From Planctomycetota bacterium (GTDB taxonomy: Bacteria > Planctomycetota > Planctomycetia > Pirellulales > PNKZ01): a DNA stretch of 64,000 bases. Every line of letters begins with the position of its first letter. Within the stretch, counting starts at the first letter, position 1. The notes beneath the pieces are model-generated. The model worked only from the letters and a program-made list of their open reading frames with translations. It made no database searches and was not told where the DNA came from. The stretch is taken from contig JAFEBQ010000002.1 of NCBI GenBank assembly GCA_018242585.1, positions 62,001 through 126,000 of the forward strand, given 5' to 3'. The translations under genes and the position numbers were made by a program. Shown in pieces: positions 49,797-63,841 of the stretch.

Positions 49797-49850
49797 TACA
49801 CCCCACAGGGTTCGAACCTGTAACCTTCGGTTCCGTAGACCGATGCTGTA
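49797..49850 (-). tRNA. 3' fragment of tRNA-Arg(ACG), probable attachment site
   Basis: Read on the minus strand, the sequence holds the anticodon arm TCGGT-CTACGGA-ACCGA (anticodon ACG, 49834-49836), variable loop AGGTT, a perfect T-arm ACAGG-TTCGAAC-CCTGT and the 3' acceptor strand. The D-arm and 5' acceptor strand are missing: the sequence toward 49860 does not match a tRNA. So this is a remnant, not a working tRNA. The tyrosine integrase gene starts 145 nt away, which fits the att end of an element that recombined into a tRNA-Arg gene. Confidence 0.85.
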
Positions 49851-49994: not shown

Positions 49995-50837
49995 ATGAAG
50001 TTGCAGCGTTTCGCCGACGAATACTGCCAGCGGGTCGAAGGCTCGGCCGGCTACCGTCACCAGCTCGCCGTCGCCGTGCGCGCGTTCAGTGAATCGCTGC
50101 GCCGGCCTGCCATGCTCGACGACCTCTGCGCCGAATCGCTGAACGCGCACTTAGCCGAACTGCGCGCCGCCGATTACAGCGACAGCTATCGCAAGGGGCG
50201 GAAAACGAATCTGCTTGTGTTGTGGAATGCGGCCGCCGACGACGAACTGATAGCGCCGCCGCGGCGACGAAAGCTGCTGCCGTGTCGCGTCGCCGATCGC
50301 GTTACAACAGCTTGGACCAGGGCGCAGGTTACACAGCAGCTTTTGCCGGCCTGCCAGGGATTGAAAGGGCAGCATTCGACGGGCGTCGCTCGGGCCGACT
50401 ACTGGCGCGCCTGGATTCTCTGCGCCTGGGATAGTGCGCTACGCGGCGTCGATCTTCGTCGGCTGAAGTTCTCGGGCGTCGCTTCGAACGGTCGGGCGGT
50501 CGTCGTCCAGCATAAGACGGGAAAGCGCATCGTCGCGCAATTCACGCCGACGACGATGCACGCGATCGACTGCGCGTCGGCGCCGCGTCGGGAACTTGTG
50601 TTCCCCTTGTGGGGGTCGGGAGAAATATGGCGCCGCGAAGCCGCCAGGCTGATTGCGCTAGCGGGCTTGCGCGGCTCGATTGGAATGCTGCGCGCGTCGA
50701 CGGGAACTGATTACGAACTGCGCCACCCTGGCCGCGGCCATGAACTGCTAGGCAACACGCGAGCAGTCTTTGAAAAGCATTATCTCGACCTGTCGATTGT
50801 CGAGTCAGCCCGGCCGGCGCAGGAATCGCTTATTTAG
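49995..50837 (+). CDS. Tyrosine recombinase / phage integrase
   Basis: 280 aa. The N-terminal ~100 residues are a SAM-like core-binding domain (VRAFSESLRRPAMLDDLCAE). The catalytic domain shows Arg in WDSALRGVDLRRLKFSG, Lys in VVVQHKTGKRIVAQF, an Arg in GMLRASTGT at the HxxR position, a later His in PGRGHELLGNTRAVF, and the Tyr nucleophile in EKHYLDLS. The first His of HxxR is replaced by Met/Leu, a tolerated variation. It faces away from the tRNA fragment and converges with the next gene (8-nt overlap of 3' ends). It should integrate and excise the element. Confidence 0.9.
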   Translation: MKLQRFADEYCQRVEGSAGYRHQLAVAVRAFSESLRRPAMLDDLCAESLNAHLAELRAADYSDSYRKGRKTNLLVLWNAAADDELIAPPRRRKLLPCRVADRVTTAWTRAQVTQQLLPACQGLKGQHSTGVARADYWRAWILCAWDSALRGVDLRRLKFSGVASNGRAVVVQHKTGKRIVAQFTPTTMHAIDCASAPRRELVFPLWGSGEIWRREAARLIALAGLRGSIGMLRASTGTDYELRHPGRGHELLGNTRAVFEKHYLDLSIVESARPAQESLI

Positions 50838-51156: not shown

Positions 51157-51186
51157 TTGACGAACCCTGCCGCCGCTCCGTATAGT
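51157..51186 (+). promoter_or_regulatory. Sigma-70-type promoter for the sigma-like gene
   Basis: TTGACG (51157-51162), an 18-nt spacer and TATAGT (51181-51186) form a good promoter reading toward the gene at 51231. It lies between two divergent genes of the element and is the best promoter match in the window. Confidence 0.75.
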
Positions 51187-51230: not shown

Positions 51231-51767
51231 TTGTCTTATTTCGACGGCCGCGCAGTCGGGGAAGTGATCGCGAAACTTCGCGGTTGCAAGATCGCGCGGC
51301 AAATGGCGAACGAGCGCAAGGAATCGCTCAAAAGCAAAGCATCGCGCGATCGCTTCGACGCTGAAGCTGCCGCCTTATCGAAACAGGTCGACGACCTGGA
51401 ATCACAGCTCGCCGTCGCCGTCTACGCCGTTTGCGATCGCGTCGCCGGCAAGTTCATTCGCGAAGAGTTGCGCGAACATGCCGACGACTTCACGCAAACG
51501 GCCGTACTGCACGTCGTGCGCAACATTCACAAATACGACCGCTTCAGGAAGCGCAGTCTGCTCGGCTGGATTACGCAGGTCGTCAAGAACGTGTTTCGCA
51601 TGGAAGCCCGGCGGCTCAACACGCAGGCCGCGCACTTCGCCCGCTACTGCGAATCACAGCCCGCGGGCGAGCCTTTCGAGTACGCTGGCCGCAAGCACGG
51701 TCAGGAAGCTGCCGGCGAGCCCGTAGGCGACGACGACGCCTGGCTGTTCGATATTGACGACGAGTAG
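51231..51767 (+). CDS. Sigma-factor-like protein (region 2 only)
   Basis: 178 aa if the TTG at 51231 is used; an in-frame stop lies just before it, and the first ATG is at 51303. The centre resembles sigma-70 region 2: ELREHADDFTQTAVLHVVRN, then KYDRFRKRSLLGWITQVVKN and VFRMEARRLN. Region 4 and its helix-turn-helix are absent; the C-terminus is short and acidic (DDDAWLFDIDDE). So it may bind RNA polymerase or DNA without being a full sigma factor. Its last 114 nt overlap the DUF1360-like gene on the other strand. Confidence 0.65.
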   Translation: MSYFDGRAVGEVIAKLRGCKIARQMANERKESLKSKASRDRFDAEAAALSKQVDDLESQLAVAVYAVCDRVAGKFIREELREHADDFTQTAVLHVVRNIHKYDRFRKRSLLGWITQVVKNVFRMEARRLNTQAAHFARYCESQPAGEPFEYAGRKHGQEAAGEPVGDDDAWLFDIDDE

Positions 51768-51929
51768 CGCGCAGGCGACGCCTGCCCAGAAACCAGAACA
51801 CTGGTAACACTTGACCAGTGTTCGCAGCGGGCCAGGGAGGGCGTCGCGCAGCGGTCGCAACAGGTACGACTCGACAACGATCATCGCCAGCCCGACGCTA
51901 GCCAGTAGGGTCAGCAGCGCGTCGAGCAT
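51654..51929 (-). CDS. Small membrane protein, DUF1360-like
   Basis: 91 aa with an N-terminal helix (LLTLLASVGLAMIVVESYLL) and a second one near the C-terminus, and the motif VKCYQCSGFWAGVACALLVV (CxxCxGFWxG), which is typical for DUF1360 proteins of phages and bacteria. Function unknown, probably membrane. The ATG shares its A with the stop of the preceding gene (TAATG), so it is coupled. Its 3' part is antisense to the sigma-like gene. Confidence 0.78.
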   Translation of the reverse strand: MLDALLTLLASVGLAMIVVESYLLRPLRDALPGPLRTLVKCYQCSGFWAGVACALLVVNIEQPGVVVAYGLAGSFLTVLAASVLERLARGL

Positions 51930-52144: not shown

Positions 52145-53917
52145 CTAGCTAGCCGACACACAAATTCCATTAACAAACGTGAACGTAGTAAACACACCGC
52201 TGCCACTGAACCCAGCATTGCCGTTGATGAACAGATTGCCCGGTGTTCCAGCCCCTGCACCGCCGTCTAAACCAGCAGCGCCGGTGCTAAGATAAAGATT
52301 CCCGCCGTTGCCGCTAACTTGAGTACCTGTTCCTGCGCCGCCGGTACTTGCCGCCAGGTAGCAATTGCCGCCTGCGCCGGCGGCGAGCGACAGCCCATCG
52401 CTGGCGTCACCGCCCACTTGAGAAGAGACGTTAAAAGCGCCGCCTGCGTTCCCTGTTACGGCGGAGCTTGGGTTGAACGTGAAGCTAGAGCCAGCAAATG
52501 TCACCGTCCCAGCGACCCCTAGCCCTGTTCCTGCGCCGGCATTGAAGCTGAGATTGCCGCCGTTATGGTTGCCGCTGTCGTCGCCATTAGCGGCAGAGGC
52601 GTAGACATTAACGTCGTTGCCTTGGCTTCCGCCCGAGTTGGCGGACCCCGCGTTGATGGTACATGGGTCGCCGACGGGACTTGAAAATGTCAATGCGGAA
52701 AGAGTATTGACGACTAGATTGCCAGCGCCATCGGTCGTCGCGACGCTATCTCCACCAAATGCGCCAGCGTTGTTGTACTGAAGCTGGCGATTGCTACCGC
52801 CGGGCGATCCTCCGCCCGCCGAGCCGTTGGCCGCGGCCGTGATTCGCCCGTTCGCATCGACCGTGATATTCGCCGAGGTGTAACTGCCTGGCGTGACGGC
52901 TGTCGTGCTGAGCCGCGCGTCGCCAAGCGTGCCGCTTGTGATGTTGCTCGCGTTCGTCGTGTCGGTCGTCGCCGAGGCGACCAGCCCCAGATTGCTACGG
53001 GCCGTCGCGACACTCGCCAGGTCGGAGAGATTGTTGCTCGCGACGAGCGCGCCGGTCACATGATGCGCGAGTACGAACCAATTCGTCCCTACGGTCGCCT
53101 CGTCGCCGCCGGCATTGTTCGCCGCGCAAACCAGCAGGTCGCCGATTTCGACGGCCTTACCGCTGGCGCCGCCGACCTTGCCGGCTGCCGAGACATAGTA
53201 GGCGTCGCCCTTTGTGCCGGCCGGGTAGCTCGGATTCGCCGAAGCGTCTTCGTTCCCCTTGAAGTCAAGCAGGCTCGTCAGGCTGGCGTCGACGTAAGCC
53301 TTCGTCGCGGCATCCTGGCCGCTCGTCGGCGACGGCAGGCCCGTAATCGACCCGCCGGTAATCGCGACGCTCGACGCCGCCTGCGTCGCCAGGCTGCCCA
53401 GCCCCAAATTAGTACGCGCGGTTGAAACGCTGCCTAGATCGCTAAGATTGTTTGCAGCCAAAACGCGCGCGTTGAGTTGTCCTTGAATTGCCGCGGTGAC
53501 GCCGGACAGATAGCCGACCTCGGCCGCGGTCGCCCCCCCCACGTTATGGCCCGCCAGGGAGAGATTGCCGCCCAGCGCCGGCGACGTGTCCTGCGAAACG
53601 TGCTGCAAGTACGCCGAATCGTCGTCGTCGGCGACGACCTGTTCAGCGACGAACTGCGTAATCCCGCCGGCCGTCATAACCGCGACGACGGCTGCGTTCG
53701 CGTCGTGCGCGTCGGCCACCGAGTCTTCAATGCCGCGCGTGACGGTCAACGTGTTGCCGCTGACGCTCGTGACCAGCATCAGTTCGCTATCGACGACGAC
53801 GCGAAAGTTTCCCGCCGTGGGGAAGCTACTCGCGTCGTGAATCGCGCACGTCGTTTGAGCGCGGGAAATCGCGGCGACAAGCGTTGACGCGCCGTTATTG
53901 ACGAGTTGTTCGGCCAT
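52145..53917 (-). CDS. Phage tail fibre/collar-type protein
   Basis: 590 aa. Residues 1-100 have a beta-rich, collagen-free N-terminal domain (SRAQTTCAIHDASSFPTAGN). Two copies of the tail-fibre repeat NNLSDLxSVxTARxNLGL occur (about residues 155-175 and 295-312), a hallmark of phage fibres. From about 370 the sequence is Gly/Asn/Ser-rich and low in charge, as in trimeric fibre shafts. It ends FTFVNGICVSAS. It should bind the host surface. Its start lies 4 nt after a GGCATAGATA element (53922-53931) with no Shine-Dalgarno. Confidence 0.88.
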   Translation of the reverse strand: MAEQLVNNGASTLVAAISRAQTTCAIHDASSFPTAGNFRVVVDSELMLVTSVSGNTLTVTRGIEDSVADAHDANAAVVAVMTAGGITQFVAEQVVADDDDSAYLQHVSQDTSPALGGNLSLAGHNVGGATAAEVGYLSGVTAAIQGQLNARVLAANNLSDLGSVSTARTNLGLGSLATQAASSVAITGGSITGLPSPTSGQDAATKAYVDASLTSLLDFKGNEDASANPSYPAGTKGDAYYVSAAGKVGGASGKAVEIGDLLVCAANNAGGDEATVGTNWFVLAHHVTGALVASNNLSDLASVATARSNLGLVASATTDTTNASNITSGTLGDARLSTTAVTPGSYTSANITVDANGRITAAANGSAGGGSPGGSNRQLQYNNAGAFGGDSVATTDGAGNLVVNTLSALTFSSPVGDPCTINAGSANSGGSQGNDVNVYASAANGDDSGNHNGGNLSFNAGAGTGLGVAGTVTFAGSSFTFNPSSAVTGNAGGAFNVSSQVGGDASDGLSLAAGAGGNCYLAASTGGAGTGTQVSGNGGNLYLSTGAAGLDGGAGAGTPGNLFINGNAGFSGSGVFTTFTFVNGICVSAS

Positions 53918-53920
53918 GAC

Positions 53921-54271
53921 CTATCTATGCCGCGCGTCAGCCGCCGGCGCCGCGAAGGAAACAGCCTGGTTGAGCTGCCGCTGTCGCTCTTGGCAATCGC
54001 CACAGTTCGCGATGTTCGTGCCGGCCACGGCGTCGATGACTCGCGCGATGGGCTGGGCCAGCGCCGCCACAACGTCTCCCAAGCCGCGTAGCTTGGGGCG
54101 CTCGGTGCGCGTGATCGTGACCGGAATCGCGCGCGGGTTGGCGCAGGGCGTGCCGCGCTGCCGGCAGACGGCGCAGATCGACGCGCTAACCAGGTTGTCG
54201 TGCGCGTGAACGCTGGTGTGTCGGCAAAAGTGCGCGCCGTCAATCAGCGCTAACAGCGGGCAATCGCTCAT
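53921..54271 (-). CDS. Phage protein with cysteine motifs, function unknown
   Basis: 116 aa. Contains ICAVCRQRGTPCANPRA near the middle and NCGDCQERQRQ near the end, with His residues (HFCRHTSVHAH) at the N-terminus; together they could bind a metal or Fe-S cluster. The start overlaps the stop of the next gene upstream by 4 nt. No family recognised. It ends inside the motif that precedes the tail-fibre start. Confidence 0.65.
   Translation of the reverse strand: MSDCPLLALIDGAHFCRHTSVHAHDNLVSASICAVCRQRGTPCANPRAIPVTITRTERPKLRGLGDVVAALAQPIARVIDAVAGTNIANCGDCQERQRQLNQAVSFAAPAADARHR
53922..53931 (-). promoter_or_regulatory. GGCATAGATA start-associated element, copy 1
   Basis: GGCATAGATA, then GGTC and the ATG of the tail-fibre gene at 53917. 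Same 4-nt spacing as the other three copies; no Shine-Dalgarno is present. Confidence 0.6.
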
Positions 54272-55293
54272 ACGAAACCGTTGATCGTAAGCACGGGCGT
54301 GATCGACTCGGAACAGCCCCCCGTGCCGCCGTCACTACAAGTGAAGTCCACCGCCGACGAGGTGATAACGGTCGTCGCCAACGTGGCGTCGGGCAAACCA
54401 CTGGCGGTGGTGTTCCAGCTCGACACGCCGCCATCGGCGCTCACCCACTGGCAGGGGCCCGGTCCCCCCAAGGGGTTGGCGCGCTGCCCCTCGCCGGTCG
54501 CGCGCAGCAGCCATTGGCAACAACCGTACATTGCGACAATGACGAGCGATAGGAACCCCGCCGTTCCCAGCGTCCCTTCGCTGTACGAATAGCTGCCGTC
54601 GCCGTTCGAGGTCAGGACATAATCGCCATCATTGGTGCCCCCGTCGCACGTCGATCCCGTGCCCGAGAGGGTCACGGAAAGGTTGCGCGAAACATTCGAG
54701 GTCAGCGAACTACAGGTGAAGTCGCTGGAACACTCCGCCTCGGTCGTGATCCGGCTGCCAGTGACATTGCTAAACGTCACGTCCCCCGTATTGTTTTCGA
54801 CCTTGATCGCGAAGCCCTTGCCAGTCGGCGCGGCGGCGGTGACGATCGCTCCGGACAGTGGTCCGGAAACAATGCAGCGCGTGTCGCGCACGAACCATTG
54901 GTCGCTGTCGCACACGGGCTGATCGTTGGTGACGTAGAGCAGAAACCCCGTGGGCGTTTTGGGCGTGCCAAGATTGACGCTGACCGTGTCACCACCGCTG
55001 GTCAGCGTGTACGCGCCGGTGGCGTTGTCGTACCGCGCGTACGTGCCGGTGTCGGGCCAATTCGGGTAAACCGTGATCTTGGCGTTGGCGTCGAGCGGGC
55101 TGGACCAATCGACGTAGACAAAGTGCTTGTCGGCGGCGCTCGCCGTGACGCTATGCACTTGGCCGCCGCCGGCGGCCACCACCAGGCTTCCCGACGCGAT
55201 CGACCAACTGCCCGAGTCCACGGACAATCCTGCCATGCCGTTGCCTGGGATCGTGTAGAAGGTGCAGCCACAGCAGCACGGCAGCCAGCGCAT
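54268..55293 (-). CDS. Phage structural protein of unknown function
   Basis: 341 aa with a Shine-Dalgarno AGGAG 5 nt before the ATG at 55293. The N-terminus MRWLPCCCGCTFYTIPG has an unusual Cys cluster (CCCGC). The rest is Thr/Ser/Gly/Asp-rich and beta-like (SGDTVSVNLGTPKTPTGFLL), consistent with a tail-tip or fibre-associated protein. Position between the tape-measure end and the tail fibre fits this. No family recognised. Confidence 0.65.
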   Translation of the reverse strand: MRWLPCCCGCTFYTIPGNGMAGLSVDSGSWSIASGSLVVAAGGGQVHSVTASAADKHFVYVDWSSPLDANAKITVYPNWPDTGTYARYDNATGAYTLTSGGDTVSVNLGTPKTPTGFLLYVTNDQPVCDSDQWFVRDTRCIVSGPLSGAIVTAAAPTGKGFAIKVENNTGDVTFSNVTGSRITTEAECSSDFTCSSLTSNVSRNLSVTLSGTGSTCDGGTNDGDYVLTSNGDGSYSYSEGTLGTAGFLSLVIVAMYGCCQWLLRATGEGQRANPLGGPGPCQWVSADGGVSSWNTTASGLPDATLATTVITSSAVDFTCSDGGTGGCSESITPVLTINGFV

Positions 55294-55300
55294 AACACTC

Positions 55301-55705
55301 CTAGGACGGCGGAATCGGACCAGGGCAGGTGTCGCTGTTGATGACCCACCAGCGGCCGGCGGCGTAGACCAGCGTGACTCGCGCGCCAGACGGAATCTGG
55401 GTCTGATCCACCAAGGACCAGTGCGCCCAACAATCGGTCTCGGGCCAACTGACGGCCGCCGCCTCCTGGCTCGTGTCGTCGTCGGGTGACGGCGCGCACC
55501 AGAGGGTGAACTTGCCCTTGTTGTCGGCGAATGTGCCGCCGTCGTTGCGCTTGACCGCCTGGGTCAGCTTGCCAAGCACGATTGTGGCGTTCGTCGGTCG
55601 ATGACTCGACGGCGGAGCGCCTTTCCGATGTTGCTCGATTCGCTGCGCGGCCGCGCCAACGCGCGCTGCTTGGTGCGGCGTGAGGCCCGCCGGCCGTTGG
55701 TTCAT
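55301..55705 (-). CDS. Phage protein of unknown function
   Basis: 134 aa. Starts MNQRPAGLTPHQAARVGAAA, then an Arg/Pro-rich part and a C-terminal beta-like domain (VTLVYAAGRWWVINSDTCPG). The ATG shares its A with the stop of the upstream gene (TAATG). It belongs to the tail-tip region by position. No motif recognised. Confidence 0.62.
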   Translation of the reverse strand: MNQRPAGLTPHQAARVGAAAQRIEQHRKGAPPSSHRPTNATIVLGKLTQAVKRNDGGTFADNKGKFTLWCAPSPDDDTSQEAAAVSWPETDCWAHWSLVDQTQIPSGARVTLVYAAGRWWVINSDTCPGPIPPS

Positions 55706-56616
55706 TAAGGGGGCCCGCTCACTACGCCGCTGGGCAGCGCGGAAAAGTCCATCATCGGCTGAATGTCGTAGCGCTTGAAAATGACCGTGCCGCTGCCGTC
55801 GACCGGCAGCATTAGCCCGCTGTTGTCGAGCGGCCAGGGTTGCGCCGGCGGCTGGCCGTTAATCAGAATTTGCCGCAAATTGCCGCTTTTCTTCTCGAAG
55901 AATCCGGCGTTCAGCACCTGCGGCTGCCAACTCTGGATCGTGTTGACGACAAACTTCAGGACCAGCGTGTAATAGATCGTGTAGACGCCGCCAATGTCCT
56001 CGCGGACTTGCTGCCAGCTCACGTCGTCCAGCTTGACGTAACCGGCGCCGTAACCAAAAAACGAGCCGCTGTTCAGCGCGTCCTGATACGACAGGATGGA
56101 ATTGACGGCCGACCAGTTTTGCACGGCGAAACTGGCGCTCACCACGGGGAAGGTGAACACGCGGGTGAGCGTGGGATCATACGGCTGGCCCGCCGTGTTC
56201 AGGATCGGCTTGCCGGCGTCGCCGCTGTCGTCGACGTTGCCCGTGGAACTGATTTTGTCGACGGGCAATTCCTGCTTCAGCCCGCCGCCGCTCCACACCG
56301 GCGCGCGATTCCAAGGCAGCTCCTCGGCGTCGAGCCATTCGTAGTCGCACTTGACGACCCAAAACTGCCCCGCCCGATCGGTGTTGTCGGCGTGTTTGTT
56401 CGCGCAGTAAATAAACGGGCGCGTCGGGTGCGCGTCGCGAAACGCGGGAATGCCCGATTCGTACAGCGCGTTCTGGTCGGTGTAGTCGCTGCGCGAGTCC
56501 AGGCTGGACAGCTTGATTTCAAAGACGCGGGTCGACGTGCCCAGGTCTTTGTACGAACGGCCGCCGCCGCGTCCGCCGCTGCCGATTTCCTTGACGTAGT
56601 CAATCGAGTAAGCCAT
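55705..56616 (-). CDS. Phage tail-tip protein candidate
   Basis: 303 aa. Directly downstream of the tape-measure gene, which is the place of distal tail proteins in siphophages. Sequence is beta-rich (TRVFTFPVVSASFAVQNWSA, YTIYYTLVLKFVVNTIQSWQ). I cannot assign a family. The ATG overlaps the tape-measure stop (TAATG), so the two are coupled. Confidence 0.62.
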   Translation of the reverse strand: MAYSIDYVKEIGSGGRGGGRSYKDLGTSTRVFEIKLSSLDSRSDYTDQNALYESGIPAFRDAHPTRPFIYCANKHADNTDRAGQFWVVKCDYEWLDAEELPWNRAPVWSGGGLKQELPVDKISSTGNVDDSGDAGKPILNTAGQPYDPTLTRVFTFPVVSASFAVQNWSAVNSILSYQDALNSGSFFGYGAGYVKLDDVSWQQVREDIGGVYTIYYTLVLKFVVNTIQSWQPQVLNAGFFEKKSGNLRQILINGQPPAQPWPLDNSGLMLPVDGSGTVIFKRYDIQPMMDFSALPSGVVSGPP

Positions 56617-58607
56617 TAAATCCCCGCCGCCGCGGCCGCCGGCGCCGACAGCCCCTTACTGATCTGCCCCAGGTATTGCGTCTGCTGCCGAAGCTGTTCG
56701 TTCGCCGTTTCTTGCAGCCGCCGAATTGCGTCCATCGGGTTATTGTTCTGGCCCGCGTTGCGATACGCTAAGACAGCCGACCGCGCTTCCGCCGTGCCAG
56801 CTAACATCGCACCACCGGCCGACGCCTTGACTTGCGGCACGGCCGCTTGCAAATCCTTGACGAGCGCACCCTGCGCACGCTGGAACGTCGCCGTATCAAT
56901 GCCGCCGGCGTCGTGTAGCTCCTTCAGCTTCTTCATTTCCCGCTCGAACTTTTCGAGCGGCGTTTCCAGCGACTGCGCTAGCTCTTTGCCCTTCAACTGC
57001 GCGCCCAGCTTTTTCACCTGCTCGACTTGCGCTGGCGTCGCCCCCTTTTCCTTCAGGTCGGCGGCTTTCTTTTGCCAGTCGTCCATGCCGAACGACTTCA
57101 GGTCCGTCTGAAGACTTTGAATCAGCTTCGTCGCTTCCGACTGCGCTTCGATCTCGCGCGCGGTCAGTTGCTTCATGGCCGCCGCCGGGCCGTCGACGAT
57201 CGCCTTTTTCATTTCGCCGGCCGCGTCTTTCGCGTCCGACTTCATGTCGTCAAAAAACTTCTTGACCTTCGTCGACGGCAACTGCTCGGAAACCGACTTG
57301 CCGAGCGCCGCGGCGCCGGCGTCGGCGTTGTCCCAGCCGGCTTTCGCCCATTCGTCAATATCTTTCGCCAGCGCCCTGGCGTCGTTCGCCGTCGCCTGCG
57401 AAATAACCCCCAAGTCGGCGAGCACCTGCGCCGCCTTGGCAGCGCCAGACGCCAGCAGCGCGAAACCTTCGATTGTGCCGGCAACCATTACGTCGAAGCC
57501 GAGCTGTAACGCCTGATAGCCGATCTTCAGGTAATGAACCGCGTCGGCGACGAGCCCAGCGCCCCAGGCGGCCAGCTCCCAGGCTTTGTTACTGATCGCG
57601 ACCCGATCGACGCTGCCGAGCCAGCCTTGAACTAAATCAATTCCCCCCTTCAGGGCCGGCGCCACGGCTTCGCCGACGACCGCTGCAATGTCGGAAAACG
57701 TGTTGTGCAAGATCGTCAGCTTGCCAGAGAGGGTGTCGCCCGCGGCCTCGGCGGCGCCGTCGTACTGCTGCTTCATCGCGTCGAGAATGACGCCTTGCGC
57801 GCCGGCCATATCGCCGGCGGCTTGCATTTGCTGGATGGCGTCAATTTGCGCCGTGCTGAACGCGACGCCAGCGCGGGCCAGGTCTAGGTAGCCTTCCCGC
57901 GGATTCTTCAGGGCTGCCCCCAGCGCCTGCGTCGCCGCGGTCGCGTCCTGCCCGCTGACCGCGGCCCAGTTCTGCGCCTGCTTGATTGCTTCCGTGAACG
58001 CCGAGCCGCTGACCGCCTGGAACTTCGCGAGCGCGGCCGCCTGACTCATCGTCGCCGCCGTGCTGTTCGTCGTCGTCTGCGCCAGTTCGGCGCCGAGTTG
58101 TCGCACCTGGCCGAGCGAAACGCCGGCGGCGTAGCCGTTCCCCTTCAGGGCCGCCGACAGCTTCGCGCTGGATTGTTCCAGTTCGCTGTAACTGGACAGC
58201 GCGACCTTTAAGCCCGCGGCGATCGCAGCGCCGAGCGTCGCGGCGCCGGCTGCAATGCCGATCGCAAGCTTTTTTCCGACGCCAGGGCCGTTGGCGGCCG
58301 CCAAGTCTTCGTTCAGCTTTTTCTGCGCGCGGCTATACTGCTGCGCATCGATCAGTCCTGCGGCGCGCAGCGCCTTCAGCTTTTGTTGTTCTTGCCTGAA
58401 TCGCTCCGTCGGCGTCTTCGTCGACTCGGCGATTCGCTGGGCTTCGGCCTGCATCTTGCCGGCCCAGCCCTCAAGCGACTTATTGTCGAACGCCTTGGCC
58501 GACGAGCCGACGTACTGGCCGACCAGCGCGCGCGCTTTCGCCAGGCCCTTTTCTAGCGGCCCAGTGGTTGCGCCGAGGATGAGAGATAGCGACCCGGCGA
58601 CTGGCAT
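56616..58607 (-). CDS. Phage tail tape-measure protein
   Basis: 663 aa. Long helical protein with hydrophobic stretches (AIGIAAGAATLGAAIAAGLK) and the classic TMP pattern of alternating Ala/Gln-rich helices: KFQAVSGSAFTEAIKQAQNW, GEAVAPALKGGIDLVQGWLG. It is the longest gene of the module and lies after the tail-assembly chaperones, as expected. TMP sets tail length; a tail of roughly 100 nm can be expected from about 660 residues at 1.5 A each. Start ATG at 58607 follows the previous stop directly, with GGAG upstream. Confidence 0.92.
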   Translation of the reverse strand: MPVAGSLSLILGATTGPLEKGLAKARALVGQYVGSSAKAFDNKSLEGWAGKMQAEAQRIAESTKTPTERFRQEQQKLKALRAAGLIDAQQYSRAQKKLNEDLAAANGPGVGKKLAIGIAAGAATLGAAIAAGLKVALSSYSELEQSSAKLSAALKGNGYAAGVSLGQVRQLGAELAQTTTNSTAATMSQAAALAKFQAVSGSAFTEAIKQAQNWAAVSGQDATAATQALGAALKNPREGYLDLARAGVAFSTAQIDAIQQMQAAGDMAGAQGVILDAMKQQYDGAAEAAGDTLSGKLTILHNTFSDIAAVVGEAVAPALKGGIDLVQGWLGSVDRVAISNKAWELAAWGAGLVADAVHYLKIGYQALQLGFDVMVAGTIEGFALLASGAAKAAQVLADLGVISQATANDARALAKDIDEWAKAGWDNADAGAAALGKSVSEQLPSTKVKKFFDDMKSDAKDAAGEMKKAIVDGPAAAMKQLTAREIEAQSEATKLIQSLQTDLKSFGMDDWQKKAADLKEKGATPAQVEQVKKLGAQLKGKELAQSLETPLEKFEREMKKLKELHDAGGIDTATFQRAQGALVKDLQAAVPQVKASAGGAMLAGTAEARSAVLAYRNAGQNNNPMDAIRRLQETANEQLRQQTQYLGQISKGLSAPAAAAAGI

Positions 58608-59009
58608 TTACTTCAGCTCCAAAATGCCAGCAAGAACCCGATTCAAAGTATCGGGAACCAATGATTCCGCCTGTTCAATGCCGCGCTGCATAAACCGATT
58701 AGCCGCCTGTCGACCGCGCGGAACGCTGACGCCGTAGTTCGGCGCGAAAGCGTAATACTTTCCTTCTTTCGTCGCTTTCGCGACGATCCGAAATGCAACG
58801 TCGAAACGCTTCTTACTCTTGACGACGCGAACCCTCAGGCTGCGCGACAGGAACTTAGTTTCGCCGCGCGGAATCATCGGCTTAACTAGCGCGGCAGCTT
58901 GCTTCGTCGTTTCGCGCAGCTCTTTGCGCAGCACTTTGTTAGCCTTGCGGCCGACTGTCAAAAGCGCTTCGTTTACTGCGTCGAAACCCTCGAAACGAGC
59001 TGACTGCAC
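58608..59009 (-). CDS. HK97-gp10-like phage protein
   Basis: 133 aa from a GTG at 59009. Basic, with FDAVNEALLTVGRKANKVLR, KELRETTKQAAALVKPMIPR and a C-terminal helix; this fits the HK97 gp10-type tail-completion family (head-tail or minor tail role). Its position between chaperone and tape measure is unusual for gp10, which normally precedes the tail tube, so the family call is tentative. The start is 4 nt after a GGCATAGATA element (59014-59023). Confidence 0.6.
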   Translation of the reverse strand: MQSARFEGFDAVNEALLTVGRKANKVLRKELRETTKQAAALVKPMIPRGETKFLSRSLRVRVVKSKKRFDVAFRIVAKATKEGKYYAFAPNYGVSVPRGRQAANRFMQRGIEQAESLVPDTLNRVLAGILELK

Positions 59010-59013
59010 AAGG

Positions 59014-59023
59014 TATCTATGCC
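59014..59023 (-). promoter_or_regulatory. GGCATAGATA start-associated element, copy 2
   Basis: On the minus strand GGCATAGATA is followed by CCTT and the GTG start at 59009. Its TAG is the stop of the upstream chaperone frame. Exact copies lie before the starts at 60718, 61884 and 53917. Confidence 0.6.
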
Positions 59024-59373
59024 AGTTCGGACAGGGGGACGCTGGCCCAGGTCGGCGTGATGCCGACGCTGCGTAGAACGCCGTCGAGAATCGACGCCAT
59101 TTCAGCCGGCGTCTGTTCGCGCTCAGGCAGCAGCCGCGGAATGAAGTCGGCCGGCTGCGCCGCCGTCGTGCGCTTGGCGTAGGGGTTGCTATTCGCGATC
59201 GTGGCGCAGATTGCCCCGGCTTGCAGCCATTCGTCGCCGAACGGTTCCAGGCGATAGAACGCTAGCCAGTGGTCCAGTTCGCCAGGCCCGAGAGAATCAA
59301 GCAACTCGCCGACGGTCTTCTTGAGTTCCCGCGCCAGCTTGAACAGGAACCACAGCGACGAATTGCTTTCTAG
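59017..59373 (-). CDS. Tail-assembly chaperone, frameshifted C-terminal part (gpGT-like)
   Basis: This frame has no good independent start; its only early start is a TTG at 59304. Reading continues from the A AAA AAC slippery site at 59373-59379 in the -1 frame without a stop, giving LESNSSLWFLFKLARELKKT and then LDSLGPGELDHWLAFYRLEP, FGDEWLQAGAICATIAN and SVGITPTWASVPLSELA. The segment WLAFYRLEPFGDEW is typical for the T-part of lambda-type tail chaperones. A -1 frameshift from the upstream gene would make a fusion of about 232 aa. It should chaperone the tape measure during tail assembly. Confidence 0.85.
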   Translation of the reverse strand, partial: LESNSSLWFLFKLARELKKTVGELLDSLGPGELDHWLAFYRLEPFGDEWLQAGAICATIANSNPYAKRTTAAQPADFIPRLLPEREQTPAEMASILDGVLRSVGITPTWASVPLSELA

Positions 59374-59714
59374 TTTTTTACTGGCTGCTCACTGCTGCTT
59401 TGCTGCACGTCGACGACGGCTTTGAACAGGTCGTCGATTTCATTCGACGGAAACTTGGCTAGCTCGTCGGCGCCGGTCGCGCGATCGAACAGCAGGTTCC
59501 CCGCTTCGTCGCACAGTGACCAGGCGATCACGCGACAGCGAATCAGCAGGTCCGACGTCTGCGATTCTTCCTGCTGCTTGCAGAACATCGCCCAGTCGAT
59601 TTTGTCGCGTTCCGACCAGGGGCGAATAAAACAGTCGTTCCCCATGAAACGAACTGCGATCAGCTCGGGCTTGCCGAGCGCAGAGAACAAGTTGTCCTTC
59701 AGACTCACAATCAA
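59370..59714 (-). CDS. Tail-assembly chaperone, zero-frame product (gpG-like)
   Basis: 114 aa from a TTG at 59714, preceded by AGGGAG. Contains IAVRFMGNDCFIRPWSERDK and ends SSEQPVKN, then stop TAG. The last codons GTA AAA AAC contain the canonical slippery heptamer A AAA AAC, directly before the stop. So most ribosomes make this short form and some shift to -1 and continue. Location between tail tube and tape measure is where gpG/gpGT genes sit in siphophages. Confidence 0.87.
   Translation of the reverse strand: MIVSLKDNLFSALGKPELIAVRFMGNDCFIRPWSERDKIDWAMFCKQQEESQTSDLLIRCRVIAWSLCDEAGNLLFDRATGADELAKFPSNEIDDLFKAVVDVQQSSSEQPVKN
59373..59379 (-). other. Programmed -1 ribosomal frameshift site (A AAA AAC)
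   Basis: The heptamer A AAA AAC is in phase with the zero frame (GTA AAA AAC TAG). After a -1 slip the next codon is CTA and the frame stays open for 118 codons to 59017. Slippery sites of this type are the known mechanism for gpG/gpGT production. Confidence 0.9.
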
Positions 59715-59749
59715 CGCTCCCTAACTATTGCCCCCTGCCGCACGCCCGA

Positions 59750-60205
59750 TTACGTGCGGGTATTCGGGCCCGTGACGCGAACGGCCAGGTCGGCCTGAAT
59801 GTTCCCTTGAACCTCGACGCCGGTCGGCTTGAATTGCTTGACAAAGCCCTCGAAGATTTCCGTCTTCGCCGAGCCCGGCACACTCGCCCCCGGCCCTTGC
59901 GGGTTGGCGTAGGTGAACTTCCAAAACAAGATCGTCCCCGCCGCACAAGCGGTCGTCAGCGCGGCGTGCGTCGTCTGCGACGGGTCATAAAAGATTTTAA
60001 GCGACAGGTCGTCATTCTTGACGATCGTCGGCGTTGCCTCTTCGGCCGTCGAGTCCAGGGCCGTCGACTCCGCTTCGCCCATGTTCAGGGCCGGCGGCTC
60101 GATGGAAATAACCTGCAAAATCTTGGTGTACGTCGTGCCGCCGTCGCTCGAATACTCAAGTTTGCAGCCCTTGCCGGGAATCGGATTCTGGAACGTGTAC
60201 GTCAT
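59750..60205 (-). CDS. Phage major tail (tail-tube) protein
   Basis: 151 aa with GAGG upstream of the ATG at 60205. Beta-rich small protein: FQNPIPGKGCKLEYSSDGGT, KILQVISIEPPALNMGEAES, STAEEATPTIVKNDDLSLKI and FEGFVKQFKPTGVEVQGNIQ. This pattern (lambda gpV-like tail-tube fold) fits its position just before the chaperones. It should form the tail tube. Confidence 0.8.
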   Translation of the reverse strand: MTYTFQNPIPGKGCKLEYSSDGGTTYTKILQVISIEPPALNMGEAESTALDSTAEEATPTIVKNDDLSLKIFYDPSQTTHAALTTACAAGTILFWKFTYANPQGPGASVPGSAKTEIFEGFVKQFKPTGVEVQGNIQADLAVRVTGPNTRT

Positions 60206-60208
60206 GCG

Positions 60209-60718
60209 CTAGAACCTCGGAATAGGCTGATAAAACTTGACCGCGACGACCAGCGTTCGGCAAAACCAAACGTTCCCGCTGCCGTCTTTCGGGTCTTCCT
60301 CGTCGTCGGACCAGTCGATAACTTCAACGTCTGCAACGCCAACACAGCCCCACCACCCGCCGCCGAACCCGGTCAGCAAGTCGCGAAGCGCAGCCGCTAC
60401 CGTCACCACGTCAGCGAACAGCGTCGACCAGCTTTCCAGCTCGATCGTCGCGTCAGCGACGCCGGCCGAGCCGTCCAGAACGGTTGCCTGTTCGACGCCG
60501 ACCACCTTGTACGCGATCGCGGGGAACGTACTGTTCTGGCGAGCAATGCGGCCGGGGTAAATCCGGTTCGCGACCAGCGCCGAAAGACAAGCCGCTTCAC
60601 GCAGATACTTATCAAGCCCTGCTTCTAGCGTGCTGTCCGACAGCGCTGGCGTCATGCCGCCCGAGCCCAGGGCCGGGCAACCAGCTTGCGGCAGGTTTCC
60701 CCCGTTCGGTTGCGGCAT
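60209..60718 (-). CDS. Tail completion / terminator-type protein (DUF3168-like)
   Basis: 169 aa from the ATG at 60718; a second ATG at 60655 gives 148 aa. The core TLEAGLDKYLREAACLSALV, ANRIYPGRIARQNSTFPAIA and YKVVG ... ATIELESWSTLFADVVTVAA matches the small tail-terminator family that caps the tail near the connector. Position between head-tail proteins and tail tube agrees. The start is 4 nt after a GGCATAGATA element. Confidence 0.75.
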   Translation of the reverse strand: MPQPNGGNLPQAGCPALGSGGMTPALSDSTLEAGLDKYLREAACLSALVANRIYPGRIARQNSTFPAIAYKVVGVEQATVLDGSAGVADATIELESWSTLFADVVTVAAALRDLLTGFGGGWWGCVGVADVEVIDWSDDEEDPKDGSGNVWFCRTLVVAVKFYQPIPRF

Positions 60719-60722
60719 GTTG

Positions 60723-60732
60723 TATCTATGCC
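60723..60732 (-). promoter_or_regulatory. GGCATAGATA start-associated element, copy 3
   Basis: GGCATAGATA, then CAAC and the ATG at 60718. The TAG inside it ends the small gene 60726-60911. Confidence 0.6.
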
Positions 60733-60911
60733 ACTAGCCAGTTGTCGGGGTCGATCAATTTCCTTCCGGCGGCGCGAAGTTGATTGCGCACGATGCGCAC
60801 AGCCGGCGAGTCTTCCAGAATGCCGAGCGTCAACAGCGCGATCGAAAGATGGTCGACCAAGTCGACGACCTGCGACTTTTCCATTTGCAGGAAAGCGAAA
60901 CGCTCCGTCAT
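60726..60911 (-). CDS. Small phage protein
   Basis: 61 aa, MTERFAFLQMEKSQVVDLVD and then a helical, leucine-rich part ending DPDNWLVA. No signal peptide. Its start overlaps the stop of the preceding head-closure gene by 4 nt (ATGA), so coupled translation is likely. Function unknown. Confidence 0.62.
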   Translation of the reverse strand: MTERFAFLQMEKSQVVDLVDHLSIALLTLGILEDSPAVRIVRNQLRAAGRKLIDPDNWLVA

Positions 60912-61261
60912 TGCAGCAGCTCCTGAACTAACAAGGTGTGTCGGACATTCCGTTCCGACTCATTCAAAATCGACAGCACGTTAAACACGCGCGAGCCGTA
61001 GCGCAGCCGATGGACGTCCGGCGACAGGCCCGCGAAATACCGCATAACAACTTTATGCGTCGTCAGGTTGCGGACCTGTTCACTAGCGACGAACGCCTGA
61101 CCGCTCGCCGGCAGAATCGCGGCCCAGCGGGTCGCGACCGCCGACCAGCTCGGCACCGCTTGCCCCTTCTTATCCTGCGTCGGCGCGTTCGCCTCGATTG
61201 TCACGCGCTGCCGCATATCACCCGCGGCGATCGCGAACACGTCAGCAGGCATTACGTCCAC
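60908..61261 (-). CDS. Phage head-closure / head-tail adaptor protein
   Basis: 117 aa. AAGDMRQRVTIEANAPTQDK, SWSAVATRWAAILPASGQAF and the Arg/Tyr-rich C-terminus (LRYGSRVFNVLSILNESERN) match the phage head-tail joining family (SPP1 gp16-like). It closes the DNA channel after packaging. Overlaps the connector gene stop by 10 nt. Confidence 0.82.
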   Translation of the reverse strand: MDVMPADVFAIAAGDMRQRVTIEANAPTQDKKGQAVPSWSAVATRWAAILPASGQAFVASEQVRNLTTHKVVMRYFAGLSPDVHRLRYGSRVFNVLSILNESERNVRHTLLVQELLQ

Positions 61262-61884
61262 ACCCCCGCCGACTCGGCCGCCAGCAAGTTTTCAACGGCG
61301 AGCGGAACCGGCGCGCCGGCGTCGCCAACGGCTTCGCGATTCTTGTACCAGTGCGCGACGAGCAGCTTGATAGCCGTCTTAATCGAATCAGGCACGGCCG
61401 AAGCGTCGCCGTAGCCAGCGACGTAGGCAATCTGAACGCTACCAGGGACCGGCCGAGCAGCGGGCCAGGATTGTGAATAGGCCGGCGTGATTCGCCCTGG
61501 CTGGCTGATCGTATCGACGATGTAGGTCGACGGGTCAAGCGTAATTGGCGTGCCGTCGCTCGCTTCGTAAACGATCGACGTAACCGATTGCAGCGGGGGG
61601 AGCGGCAGTCGCAGCTCGGGACCGACCAGCGTCCATTGCTGGCCGAGCACCGGGAACTGATCGGCCGTCAACTTCCAAGTTTGCGTAATCAGCGCACGTT
61701 TCAAATGCGCTTCGACGTAACGGCGCGCGGCGACAATCAGCGATGTAATGAGCGCGTCGTCGTCGGTAATTTCGACGCGCGCCCAGTCTTTCGCTTCGGC
61801 GAGCGTGACGGGCTCGACGGCCGGCGGCGTAACAAGCTGCAAACCAAAATGCAGCGGCTGACCGTACCAGGAAGTATTCGCCAT
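61252..61884 (-). CDS. Phage head-tail connector protein
   Basis: 210 aa. LAEAKDWARVEITDDDALIT, SLIVAARRYVEAHLKRALIT and QTWKLTADQFP are typical of the gp6-like connector family; C-terminal SIKTAIKLLVAHWYKNREAV also fits. It forms the ring below the portal. The capsid genes usually found upstream are not here: in this element the preceding genes are small membrane proteins and a protease. Start is 4 nt after a GGCATAGATA element (61889-61898). Confidence 0.85.
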   Translation of the reverse strand: MANTSWYGQPLHFGLQLVTPPAVEPVTLAEAKDWARVEITDDDALITSLIVAARRYVEAHLKRALITQTWKLTADQFPVLGQQWTLVGPELRLPLPPLQSVTSIVYEASDGTPITLDPSTYIVDTISQPGRITPAYSQSWPAARPVPGSVQIAYVAGYGDASAVPDSIKTAIKLLVAHWYKNREAVGDAGAPVPLAVENLLAAESAGVWT

Positions 61885-61888
61885 GCAG

Positions 61889-61898
61889 TATCTATGCC
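61889..61898 (-). promoter_or_regulatory. GGCATAGATA start-associated element, copy 4
   Basis: GGCATAGATA, then CTGC and the ATG of the head-tail connector gene at 61884. The TAG inside it ends the 20-codon frame at 61892-61954. Confidence 0.6.
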
Positions 61899-61954
61899 CG
61901 CACGGCGCGATTGAAAAACGCCGCGGTCAGCATCCCTGCCGGCCGCGGCGTCAT
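61892..61954 (-). CDS. Possible 20-residue micro-protein before the connector gene
   Basis: ATG at 61954 reads MTPRPAGMLTAAFFNRAVRA and stops inside the GGCATAGATA element. It fills the gap between the 17-aa peptide and the connector gene. No ribosome-binding site is clear. It may be chance; the frame's stop forming part of the motif is the reason for listing it. Confidence 0.3.
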   Translation of the reverse strand: MTPRPAGMLTAAFFNRAVRA

Positions 61955-62573: not shown

Positions 62574-62837
62574 TCACGGCTGGCCCGCCTCGGCGAACGG
62601 ATTCGGCGCCGGCCGATCAGGTACGCGCGGGTGCGGCCGATGATGCTCGACCGGCCAGTAAACGCCGAACGCCGAACAGCAGCCGCAACAGTCGCAGCGG
62701 CCGAAACGTGCGCCGCTGCCGATCGTCAGGCCGACGACCAGCATCACAGCCGCCAGCACGACGGCAGCGGCCGCGGCGACGCCTACCTTGCTCGCCACAC
62801 TCGACGGCATTGGCCGTTCTGACACGTCGTCACCCAT
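62574..62837 (-). CDS. Small membrane protein with CDCCGCC motif
   Basis: 87 aa from the ATG at 62837, which has AGGTGG upstream; the frame extends further but that part is antisense-like and Arg-rich. One membrane helix (VGVAAAAAVVLAAVMLVVGL) is followed directly by RCDCCGCCSAFGVYW, a dense Cys cluster, and a Pro/His-rich tail. It starts 55 nt inside the protease gene's 3' end in another frame. Function unknown. Confidence 0.55.
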   Translation of the reverse strand: MGDDVSERPMPSSVASKVGVAAAAAVVLAAVMLVVGLTIGSGARFGRCDCCGCCSAFGVYWPVEHHRPHPRVPDRPAPNPFAEAGQP

Positions 62838-63841
62838 TGACCACCTGCTTTCGTTGGATTGGCTTTCGCTTTGTCGTCGGGCTGTTCGTTCTTCAGCGCG
62901 ATCGTTTTGAATAGGTCGGCCGGCGCTTCGGCGTCGGGCTTCGTCAACCAGTCGGGGAGCAGTCGCTTCGGGAACCCGGTCGCGCTCGACAGCGCCCACG
63001 AATCGCCGGCGCGGAGAATGCGCGCGATATGTTGCGGCTCGACGTAGAACGAGCCGTCGGGCTGATCTTTGTACTTGTTTTCGCTGCTCGGGCCGTCGCC
63101 GCGAATGTACGCGCCCCAGCTATTCTGAACGAGATAGCCCTTGCGGCCGCCGTTCCGCTTGCCGCAAATGTGCATGCAATGCGACCAGCCCCCCGCCGGC
63201 CGACAAAAGCCGTCCTTGTCCCGCGGGCTCGCGAAGCCGACGCCGCTGCAAATCGTGACAGGGCAGCCGTTCTCGAGCGCCTTGTCTAACTCTTCGAGCG
63301 TCGTGACCTTCGCGGCCCCCTTGACGGGATGCTTTTTCGCCTCTTCGTCGAGCGGCCCGCTTACCGTGTTGTCGCCGCCATTGCTGCGCGCGCCCCAGTC
63401 TTTACAGCGGGGGACTTCGTAGCTCGTCAGGTCGACGCCATGCTGCGAATAATTCTGCCGGAACAGAACCCCACCAACGTCTTTCAACCACTTGACCGCG
63501 GCATAGCCGTTGCTGCCGTCGCTATAGCTGTGACCGACCCGGCCGTAAGCTTCATTGCGGGCGCCGCCGTAAATCGACTCGGCCGAGCAAGGGAGAAACT
63601 TTCCCGCTTTCCCCGCCACTACGTCGATCGCTAACAGCTCGTCGACGGCGCCGGCGTGCCCGACCGCGACGCAAGAACCGATTTTCTTTTGATTGAGGGG
63701 CAAATGCCCCGGCAGCAGTTTCTGGACGGCGCGATAAAGGAAAACTTCGCCGTCGCCGTTCGGCGGAATGACGCCGCCTTGCGACAGCACTAGCCAGGCG
63801 AACAGCGCAAAGCCGATCAGCCGCTTTTGCGATGACTGCAT
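62783..63841 (-). CDS. Papain-like (C1) cysteine protease carried by the element
   Basis: 352 aa. N-terminal hydrophobic segment (LIGFALFAWLVLSQGGVIPP). The catalytic set of papain-type enzymes can be seen: Gln and Cys in NQKKIGSCVAVGHAGAVD, His in GGWSHCMHICGKRNG, and Asn in YLVQNSWGAYIRGDG. The usual CWAF is CVAV, so the Trp is missing. The C-terminal ~70 residues are Lys/Pro-rich. Possible roles: procapsid maturation protease, host-surface degradation or virion-associated enzyme. The gene faces the structural module; no capsid gene lies between. Confidence 0.82.
   Translation of the reverse strand: MQSSQKRLIGFALFAWLVLSQGGVIPPNGDGEVFLYRAVQKLLPGHLPLNQKKIGSCVAVGHAGAVDELLAIDVVAGKAGKFLPCSAESIYGGARNEAYGRVGHSYSDGSNGYAAVKWLKDVGGVLFRQNYSQHGVDLTSYEVPRCKDWGARSNGGDNTVSGPLDEEAKKHPVKGAAKVTTLEELDKALENGCPVTICSGVGFASPRDKDGFCRPAGGWSHCMHICGKRNGGRKGYLVQNSWGAYIRGDGPSSENKYKDQPDGSFYVEPQHIARILRAGDSWALSSATGFPKRLLPDWLTKPDAEAPADLFKTIALKNEQPDDKAKANPTKAGGQWVTTCQNGQCRRVWRAR

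Follow-up and report, generated by a model that had tools for sequence, protein, structure and literature searches.

Phage T4 transcribes its late genes from promoters that consist of a single 8-bp TATA box, TATAAATA, with no -35 element, and that are read by gp55, a small phage sigma factor with a region 2 but no region 4 (PMC2988020, PMC7892883); a hydrophobic and acidic tail of gp55 binds the sliding clamp (PMC2988020). The middle and late promoters of phiEco32 also consist of one element, tAATGTAtA, which is recognized by gp36, a sigma factor without region 4, and from which transcription starts 6-8 bp downstream (PMC8948821). Late promoters of phiKZ are described as a very short element, TATG, at the RNA start (PMC5312081). 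On the bacterial side, leaderless (TA-led) genes carry a TA-rich box ~12 bp before the start codon and have no Shine-Dalgarno (SD) sequence (PMC3160421).

Here we analyze a stretch of 64,000 nucleotides (the window) that forms part of contig C2 in a 5.57 Mb Planctomycetota assembly and holds a prophage continuing to the contig end, at window-equivalent position 80496. Domains of the PSCyt2/PSD1 type in host proteins are suggestive of Planctomycetota. A first-pass annotation had drawn attention to a 10-mer, GGCATAGATA, before four phage start codons, reading it as either a promoter that gives leaderless mRNAs or a non-SD translation element. From the sequence and its comparison with related phages, we consider it likely that the element, GCATAGATA, is a -35-less, single-element late promoter of a temperate HK97-like planctomycete phage, read by a sigma factor that the phage itself encodes.

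Results

A strand-specific octamer precedes late genes of the prophage

The four copies of GGCATAGATA that had been reported on the minus strand are correctly placed, and each is followed by exactly four nucleotides and then ATG or GTG (4/4). The copies and the genes behind them, which were named from PHROGs matches, are as follows.

53922..53931, minus strand: GGCATAGATA, proposed late promoter; four nucleotides, then ATG at 53917
52145..53917, minus strand: tail-fibre-like gene, proposed to be leaderless
59014..59023, minus strand: GGCATAGATA, proposed late promoter; four nucleotides, then GTG at 59009
58608..59009, minus strand: neck/tail-completion gene with a GTG start, proposed to be leaderless
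60723..60732, minus strand: GGCATAGATA, proposed late promoter; four nucleotides, then ATG at 60718
60209..60718, minus strand: tail-terminator gene, proposed to be leaderless
61889..61898, minus strand: GGCATAGATA, proposed late promoter; four nucleotides, then ATG at 61884
61252..61884, minus strand: head-tail adaptor gene, proposed to be leaderless (phrog_442, E 7.8e-32)

With up to one mismatch allowed, the 10-mer matches five times in the window against 0.61 expected, the fifth match (one mismatch, at 56894) lying inside the tape-measure gene with no start codon behind it. Elsewhere in the 5.57 Mb genome the exact 10-mer occurs only three times, in no case four nucleotides ahead of a start codon (0/3). 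The only other exact 8-mer in the genome with that spacing to an ATG or GTG, a site on contig C6, is antisense within another ORF and was set aside as a chance match.

A scan of the rest of the element, which the first-pass annotation had suggested, revealed the enrichment that its proposal predicts. Across the whole prophage, the minus strand carries 10 copies of the pattern CATA(G/A)ATA and the plus strand none, compared with a mean of 0.14 in dinucleotide shuffles, and seven of these copies stand four nucleotides ahead of an RTG codon (shuffle mean 0.003). The octamer takes the form CATAGATA, plus one CATAAATA. Copies beyond the window, where the terminase, portal and protease genes were named by sequence and gene order, are listed by window-equivalent position.

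70225, minus strand: copy four nucleotides before the start codon of the terminase large subunit gene
68638, minus strand: copy four nucleotides before the start codon of the portal gene
67308, minus strand: copy of the form CATAAATA, four nucleotides before the start codon of the protease gene
66704, minus strand: copy with no start codon at that spacing, 68 nt ahead of the major capsid ATG
71209, minus strand: copy with no start codon at that spacing, 13 nt ahead of a small gene
72465, minus strand: copy with no start codon at that spacing, inside the primase gene

Outside the phage, CATAGATA is found 14 times in ~5.5 Mb, no more often than a reversed control pattern, which indicates that the octamer set is not a host regulon. 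In another genome of the same order (G012), CATAGATAGACCGTG occurs nine times in the host genome; these copies probably form a family of repeats that has no relation to the element of the phage.

Inspection of the sequences around the octamer copies shows that many coincide with the end of the gene before. The stop codon TAG of the preceding ORF overlaps the copy at 53922-53931 and lies inside the copies at 59014-59023 and 60723-60732; altogether such a stop falls in or overlaps the motif at six of the seven copies that have a start codon four nucleotides on, the portal copy (68638) having its stop 13 nt upstream. This overlap is no requirement of a promoter and counts against reading the element as one, as do the copy in the primase gene, which may be a chance occurrence, and the mismatched 10-mer in the tape-measure gene.

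The genes that start four nucleotides after the element were also said to lack SD sequences, and this holds with one exception: SD matches at these genes do not exceed 3 nt, apart from an AAGG before 67296. Among the other late genes, most show matches of 3-5 nt, and early genes upstream of the late module carry ordinary SD-like sequences by inspection.

Two other features of this region are recorded here. A 352-aa ORF between the capsid and adaptor genes (62783-63841, minus strand) has features of a papain-like cysteine peptidase (SCVAVGH, QNSWG), which is unusual for a gene of a tail module, and is without a Pfam match at E 0.001. Upstream of a RusA-like gene, a very AT-rich intergenic stretch (L010, window-equivalent ~71890-72165) in this phage of ~62% G+C contains repeated CTTTCAAA/TTTGAAAG words together with TATATAGATAGATAC, and is possibly a regulatory region or an origin.

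The element is conserved in relatives at differing distances from start codons

Searches of the genome_contigs collection with the terminase returned no close relative. The viral genome G397 (IMGVR_UViG_3300043409_001608), however, encodes a terminase 60% identical to that of the window phage. It has eight copies of the element, which are confined to the coding strand and to the structural genes. Five stand four nucleotides before an ATG, at the genes for portal, protease, tape measure and two tail-fibre-like paralogues, and three are followed by longer leaders, of 65 nt before the capsid gene, 36 nt before the next gene and 29 nt before the major tail gene. SD matches of 4-6 nt precede the genes behind these leadered copies. 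Another contig, L098, is 89% identical to G397 over 13 kb and retains all of the sites within its span. Comparison of these two contigs finds the 9-base element identical at 54/54 positions, as against 21/26 in the spacer and 93-98% in the flanks. The spacing to the start codon is not absolutely fixed, as it measures 5 nt at the L098 portal gene. Single CATAGATA sites in G088 (portal 26% identical) and G398 (terminase 25%), one of them apparently at a portal start, were not counted, because the octamer count in the G088 genome equals its control and no sigma factor of the kind described below was found nearby.

The frequent overlap with stop codons raises the question of termination-reinitiation, in which a ribosome would stop at the TAG or TAA in the motif and restart four nucleotides later. 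Such a process would explain why six of the seven copies contain or overlap the preceding stop, and CATAAATA, with TAA in place of TAG, would preserve it. However, at 68638 and at the G397 copies 21775 and 29000 the preceding ORF stops well before the motif begins, and the octamer and its four-nucleotide spacing are still kept. The leadered copies and those that follow terminators (see below) also speak against this explanation, to which we attach almost no weight.

A blind search for octamers over relatives found a further phage, on contig C4 of G220 (portal 38% identical), with the same architecture and a different octamer, CCTAAATA. Over 77 kb, the coding strand has 10 occurrences of CTAAATA and the other strand none; six sites stand four nucleotides and one site five nucleotides before an ATG, and three are leadered. 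The other portal-related phages that we examined, using a combined sigma profile built from the three positive phages, had neither a clear octamer of this kind nor a detectable sigma factor of this kind. Other octamers that recur ahead of start codons, in L072, L101 and L102, turned out to be tandem repeats and were rejected.

These comparisons bear directly on whether the element acts in translation. An mRNA sequence that recruits the ribosome to a start codon four nucleotides downstream, independently of an SD sequence, would fit the fixed 4-nt spacing and the absence of SD sequences at the genes concerned. In three phages, however, conserved copies lie 29-68 nt before start codons, so that not every copy is at a working distance; a ribosome signal would not be kept so far off. 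The copies just after terminators, the five-nucleotide spacer at one L098 site, and the sigma genes and TATA-like second octamer, which a translation element leaves unexplained, point the same way. This half of the original either-or proposal is contradicted by the leadered copies, and we consider it very improbable.

Terminators and base preferences point to RNA starts beside the element

Just upstream of the copy before the head-tail adaptor gene lies a hairpin that a generic terminator scan, with its loop limit of 8 nt, had missed.

61917..61952, minus strand: strong terminator-like hairpin (-28.2 kcal/mol, z -5.2), then a T run; just upstream of the proposed promoter at 61889..61898

Terminator-like hairpins with T runs also occur just upstream of copies in G397 (z -3.6) and, at two sites (z -4.1 and -3.9), in the G220 phage; three of these four post-terminator copies have their start codon four nucleotides on. 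A copy that directly follows a strong terminator implies that new RNA must begin there. Cleavage of a single extended late transcript immediately ahead of every start codon, by an RNA processing activity that recognizes the element, would be expected to give the same 5' ends as a promoter and would suit the copies in the dense gene cluster. Yet it would still need a new RNA start at the copies behind terminators, and it explains neither the TATA-like octamer nor the sigma genes; we find processing scarcely credible as the function of the element.

Alignment of 18 copies provides a second indication of where RNA would start. The base immediately after the four-nucleotide spacer is a purine in 17/18 copies and the base before it a pyrimidine in 16/18, and a purine preceded by a pyrimidine is the usual pattern at RNA starts. 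Start codons supply part of the purine excess, and the argument from this position rests partly on them; among copies without a start codon the purine is found in 5/6. Position-wise information over the 18 copies reveals no conservation in the -35 region. The octamer CATAGATA begins at -12 and does not fit the TANNNT pattern of host -10 elements.

Two additional terminator-like hairpins in the window phage (L009 16490-16530 and 17220-17300, minus strand), one after the capsid gene and one after a small downstream gene, have no CATAGATA nearby. Transcription of the genes from 65182 to 61900 is not accounted for by the promoters found.

The phages encode sigma factors with region 2 and no detectable region 4

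In G397 we found a sigma-like ORF (L088:17298-18173) that has region 2 without region 4, although its match to PF04542 is weak (E 0.009). An ATG is lacking in this ORF; the best candidate start is an ATT preceded by GAGGGAG, which would make a rare start codon, and the alternative is an internal TTG. A search of the host genome with this ORF identified a gene of the window prophage that has the probable integrase on one side and the tail genes on the other.

49995..50837, plus strand: probable tyrosine integrase at the end of the prophage (weak match to Phage_integrase, E 0.19, under the cut-off; assigned by position and neighbours)
51157..51186, plus strand: host sigma-70-type promoter sequence, TTGACG-18-TATAGT, ending 45 nt before the sigma gene start
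51231..51767, plus strand: minimal sigma factor gene, 178 aa, TTG start, proposed reader of the element (PF04542, E 1.4e-7)

The match of the 178-aa protein to sigma-70 region 2 (Pfam Sigma70_r2) is above the curated cut-off. The G220 phage encodes its own sigma factor, a 144-aa protein (MSNDYLDN...), among the structural genes, and this protein matches the gp55 family over residues 2-129 (phrog_234, E 1e-7). No Pfam family of sigma region 4 was detected in the 178, 265 or 144 aa sigma proteins of these phages, and in the window and G220 phages little of the protein follows region 2.

The placement of the window protein in the gp55 family is weak. Among PHROGs it matches phrog_1740 (E 3.6e-6) ahead of phrog_234, the gp55 family (E 0.002), and hhalign against nine gp55 proteins gave P 8e-4 at a probability of 25%, compared with P 0.32 for an unrelated control. 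A tyrosine in the N-terminal part of gp55 is aligned in 12/12 proteins compared, and the acidic and hydrophobic C-terminus, DDDAWLFDIDDE, resembles the DDSPSLDFLYEAND with which the 185-aa T4 gp55 ends; a tail of this type was not seen in the G397 or G220 sigma proteins. A structure predicted from the single sequence (pLDDT 59) had no useful PDB match and was discarded. The viral contigs gave no match to a two-sequence sigma alignment, and tblastn with the window sigma matched 0 records of the 'phages' collection. Scanning 397 genomes of the same order with phrog_234 recovered mostly long host sigma factors and is uninformative on how common the system is. One of these genomes holds a clear gp55 homologue (G234:C29:5963-6493, E 4.9e-67) with one internal TGA, which may belong to a T4-like phage contig or to contamination.

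The sequence TTGACG-18-TATAGT was found once upstream of the sigma gene, against 0.3 expected in shuffles; its position would make a host-driven sigma factor that switches on the late genes the natural reading. Close by, between the sigma gene and the tail module, lies a palindrome with 10-pair arms (GAACACTGG...CCAGTGTTC, 51796-51823), possibly an operator or a terminator. Adjoining the probable integrase, a stretch at ~49799-49850 looks like the 3' half of a tRNA, with no complete tRNA reported by ARAGORN; it is possibly the attachment site, in a tRNA split by the prophage.

A promoter need not be read by a phage protein, and a host sigma factor, either housekeeping or ECF, could serve instead, with the sigma-like phage protein having some other role. 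Hosts of this order have dozens of sigma factors, and in leaderless genes elsewhere the host -10 box in use stands ~12 bp ahead of the start codon (PMC3160421). Against this, the host genome shows no enrichment of the octamer, which does not fit TANNNT either. Moreover, both kinds of octamer co-occur with a phage sigma gene that has region 2 only, whereas the other portal-related phages examined have neither. We therefore regard recognition by a host sigma factor as unlikely, and favor recognition by the phage sigma factor, a pairing that we infer from this co-occurrence in three phages.

Discussion

Of the two functions first suggested for the element, that of a promoter is the one that has gained support, from the leadered and post-terminator copies, from the purine after the spacer and from the confinement of the copies to the one strand of the late genes; the region-2-only sigma gene and the parallel phage with its different octamer strengthen it further. 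We infer promoter activity, the RNA start and leaderlessness from these patterns, and envisage the following course. After induction, the host-type promoter would transcribe the minimal sigma gene of the phage (51231-51767), and host RNA polymerase carrying this sigma factor would recognize the octamer alone, beginning RNA at a purine ~5 nt downstream of it. For seven genes (terminase, portal, protease, adaptor, tail terminator, neck protein and tail fibre) the start codon would lie at the RNA start, giving mRNAs that are leaderless or nearly so and that need no SD sequence. Leaders of ~29-68 nt with SD-like sequences would be made for the major capsid gene and, in the relatives, also for the gene that follows capsid and for the major tail gene.

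The first-pass annotation knew of no named element of this form, a statement to be qualified: the late promoters of T4 and the promoters of phiEco32 are of the same kind. With T4, the proposed system would share a single octamer without a -35 element, its use at late genes, and a small region-2 sigma factor without region 4; in the G220 phage the likeness extends to the TAAATA that CCTAAATA has in common with the T4 box, and to a sigma factor in the gp55 family. The T4 box TATAAATA itself is nevertheless absent, its place being taken by CATAGATA/CATAAATA in the window phage and by CCTAAATA in the G220 phage. The phages here are small, temperate and HK97-like, and place start codons at the proposed RNA start. 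T4 additionally uses gp33 and the sliding clamp gp45, counterparts of which have not so far been identified in these phages, and the window sigma factor is only weakly tied to gp55 by sequence. By sequence, then, the window element is not a T4 late promoter, and its sigma factor cannot yet be filed as gp55.

The resemblance to phiEco32 lies in a single-element promoter, a phage sigma factor without region 4 (gp36 being compared here by its description) and a start a few bp past the box; the box and the type of phage differ, and a leaderless arrangement is not reported there. TA-led genes similarly have their box ~12 bp ahead of the start codon and no SD sequence, but theirs is a host -10 element, TANNNT, whereas the element described here is stringent, phage-specific and without a host regulon. 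In phiKZ, a multisubunit polymerase that the phage encodes reads the TATG element, in place of a host polymerase with a sigma factor. The proposed system would thus work like those of T4 and phiEco32 and yield what TA-led genes show. A literature search on planctomycete phages and on late sigma factors of phages with leaderless genes, which covered few subscription journals, returned no description of such a system, and no study of leaderless transcripts in Planctomycetota.

More tentatively, T4-type late transcription, with a minimal gp55-like sigma factor and single-octamer promoters, may have an unrecognized branch among small temperate Planctomycetota phages of the HK97-like type. Octamer and sigma factor would change in step between phages, and most head and tail genes would each have a promoter and be translated from leaderless mRNAs; coupling to the clamp through the C-terminal tail of the sigma factor would be possible. 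Late transcription by a region-2-only sigma factor from a -35-less octamer is already known from T4 and phiEco32. If our reading is true, the presence of this scheme, with two different octamers, in temperate phages of small size would mean that it is older or more mobile than thought, and the phages would provide matched pairs of sigma factor and promoter for studying promoter reading by region 2 alone. With the RNA start set on the start codon in gene after gene, they would also offer a simple natural system of leaderless translation in Planctomycetota.
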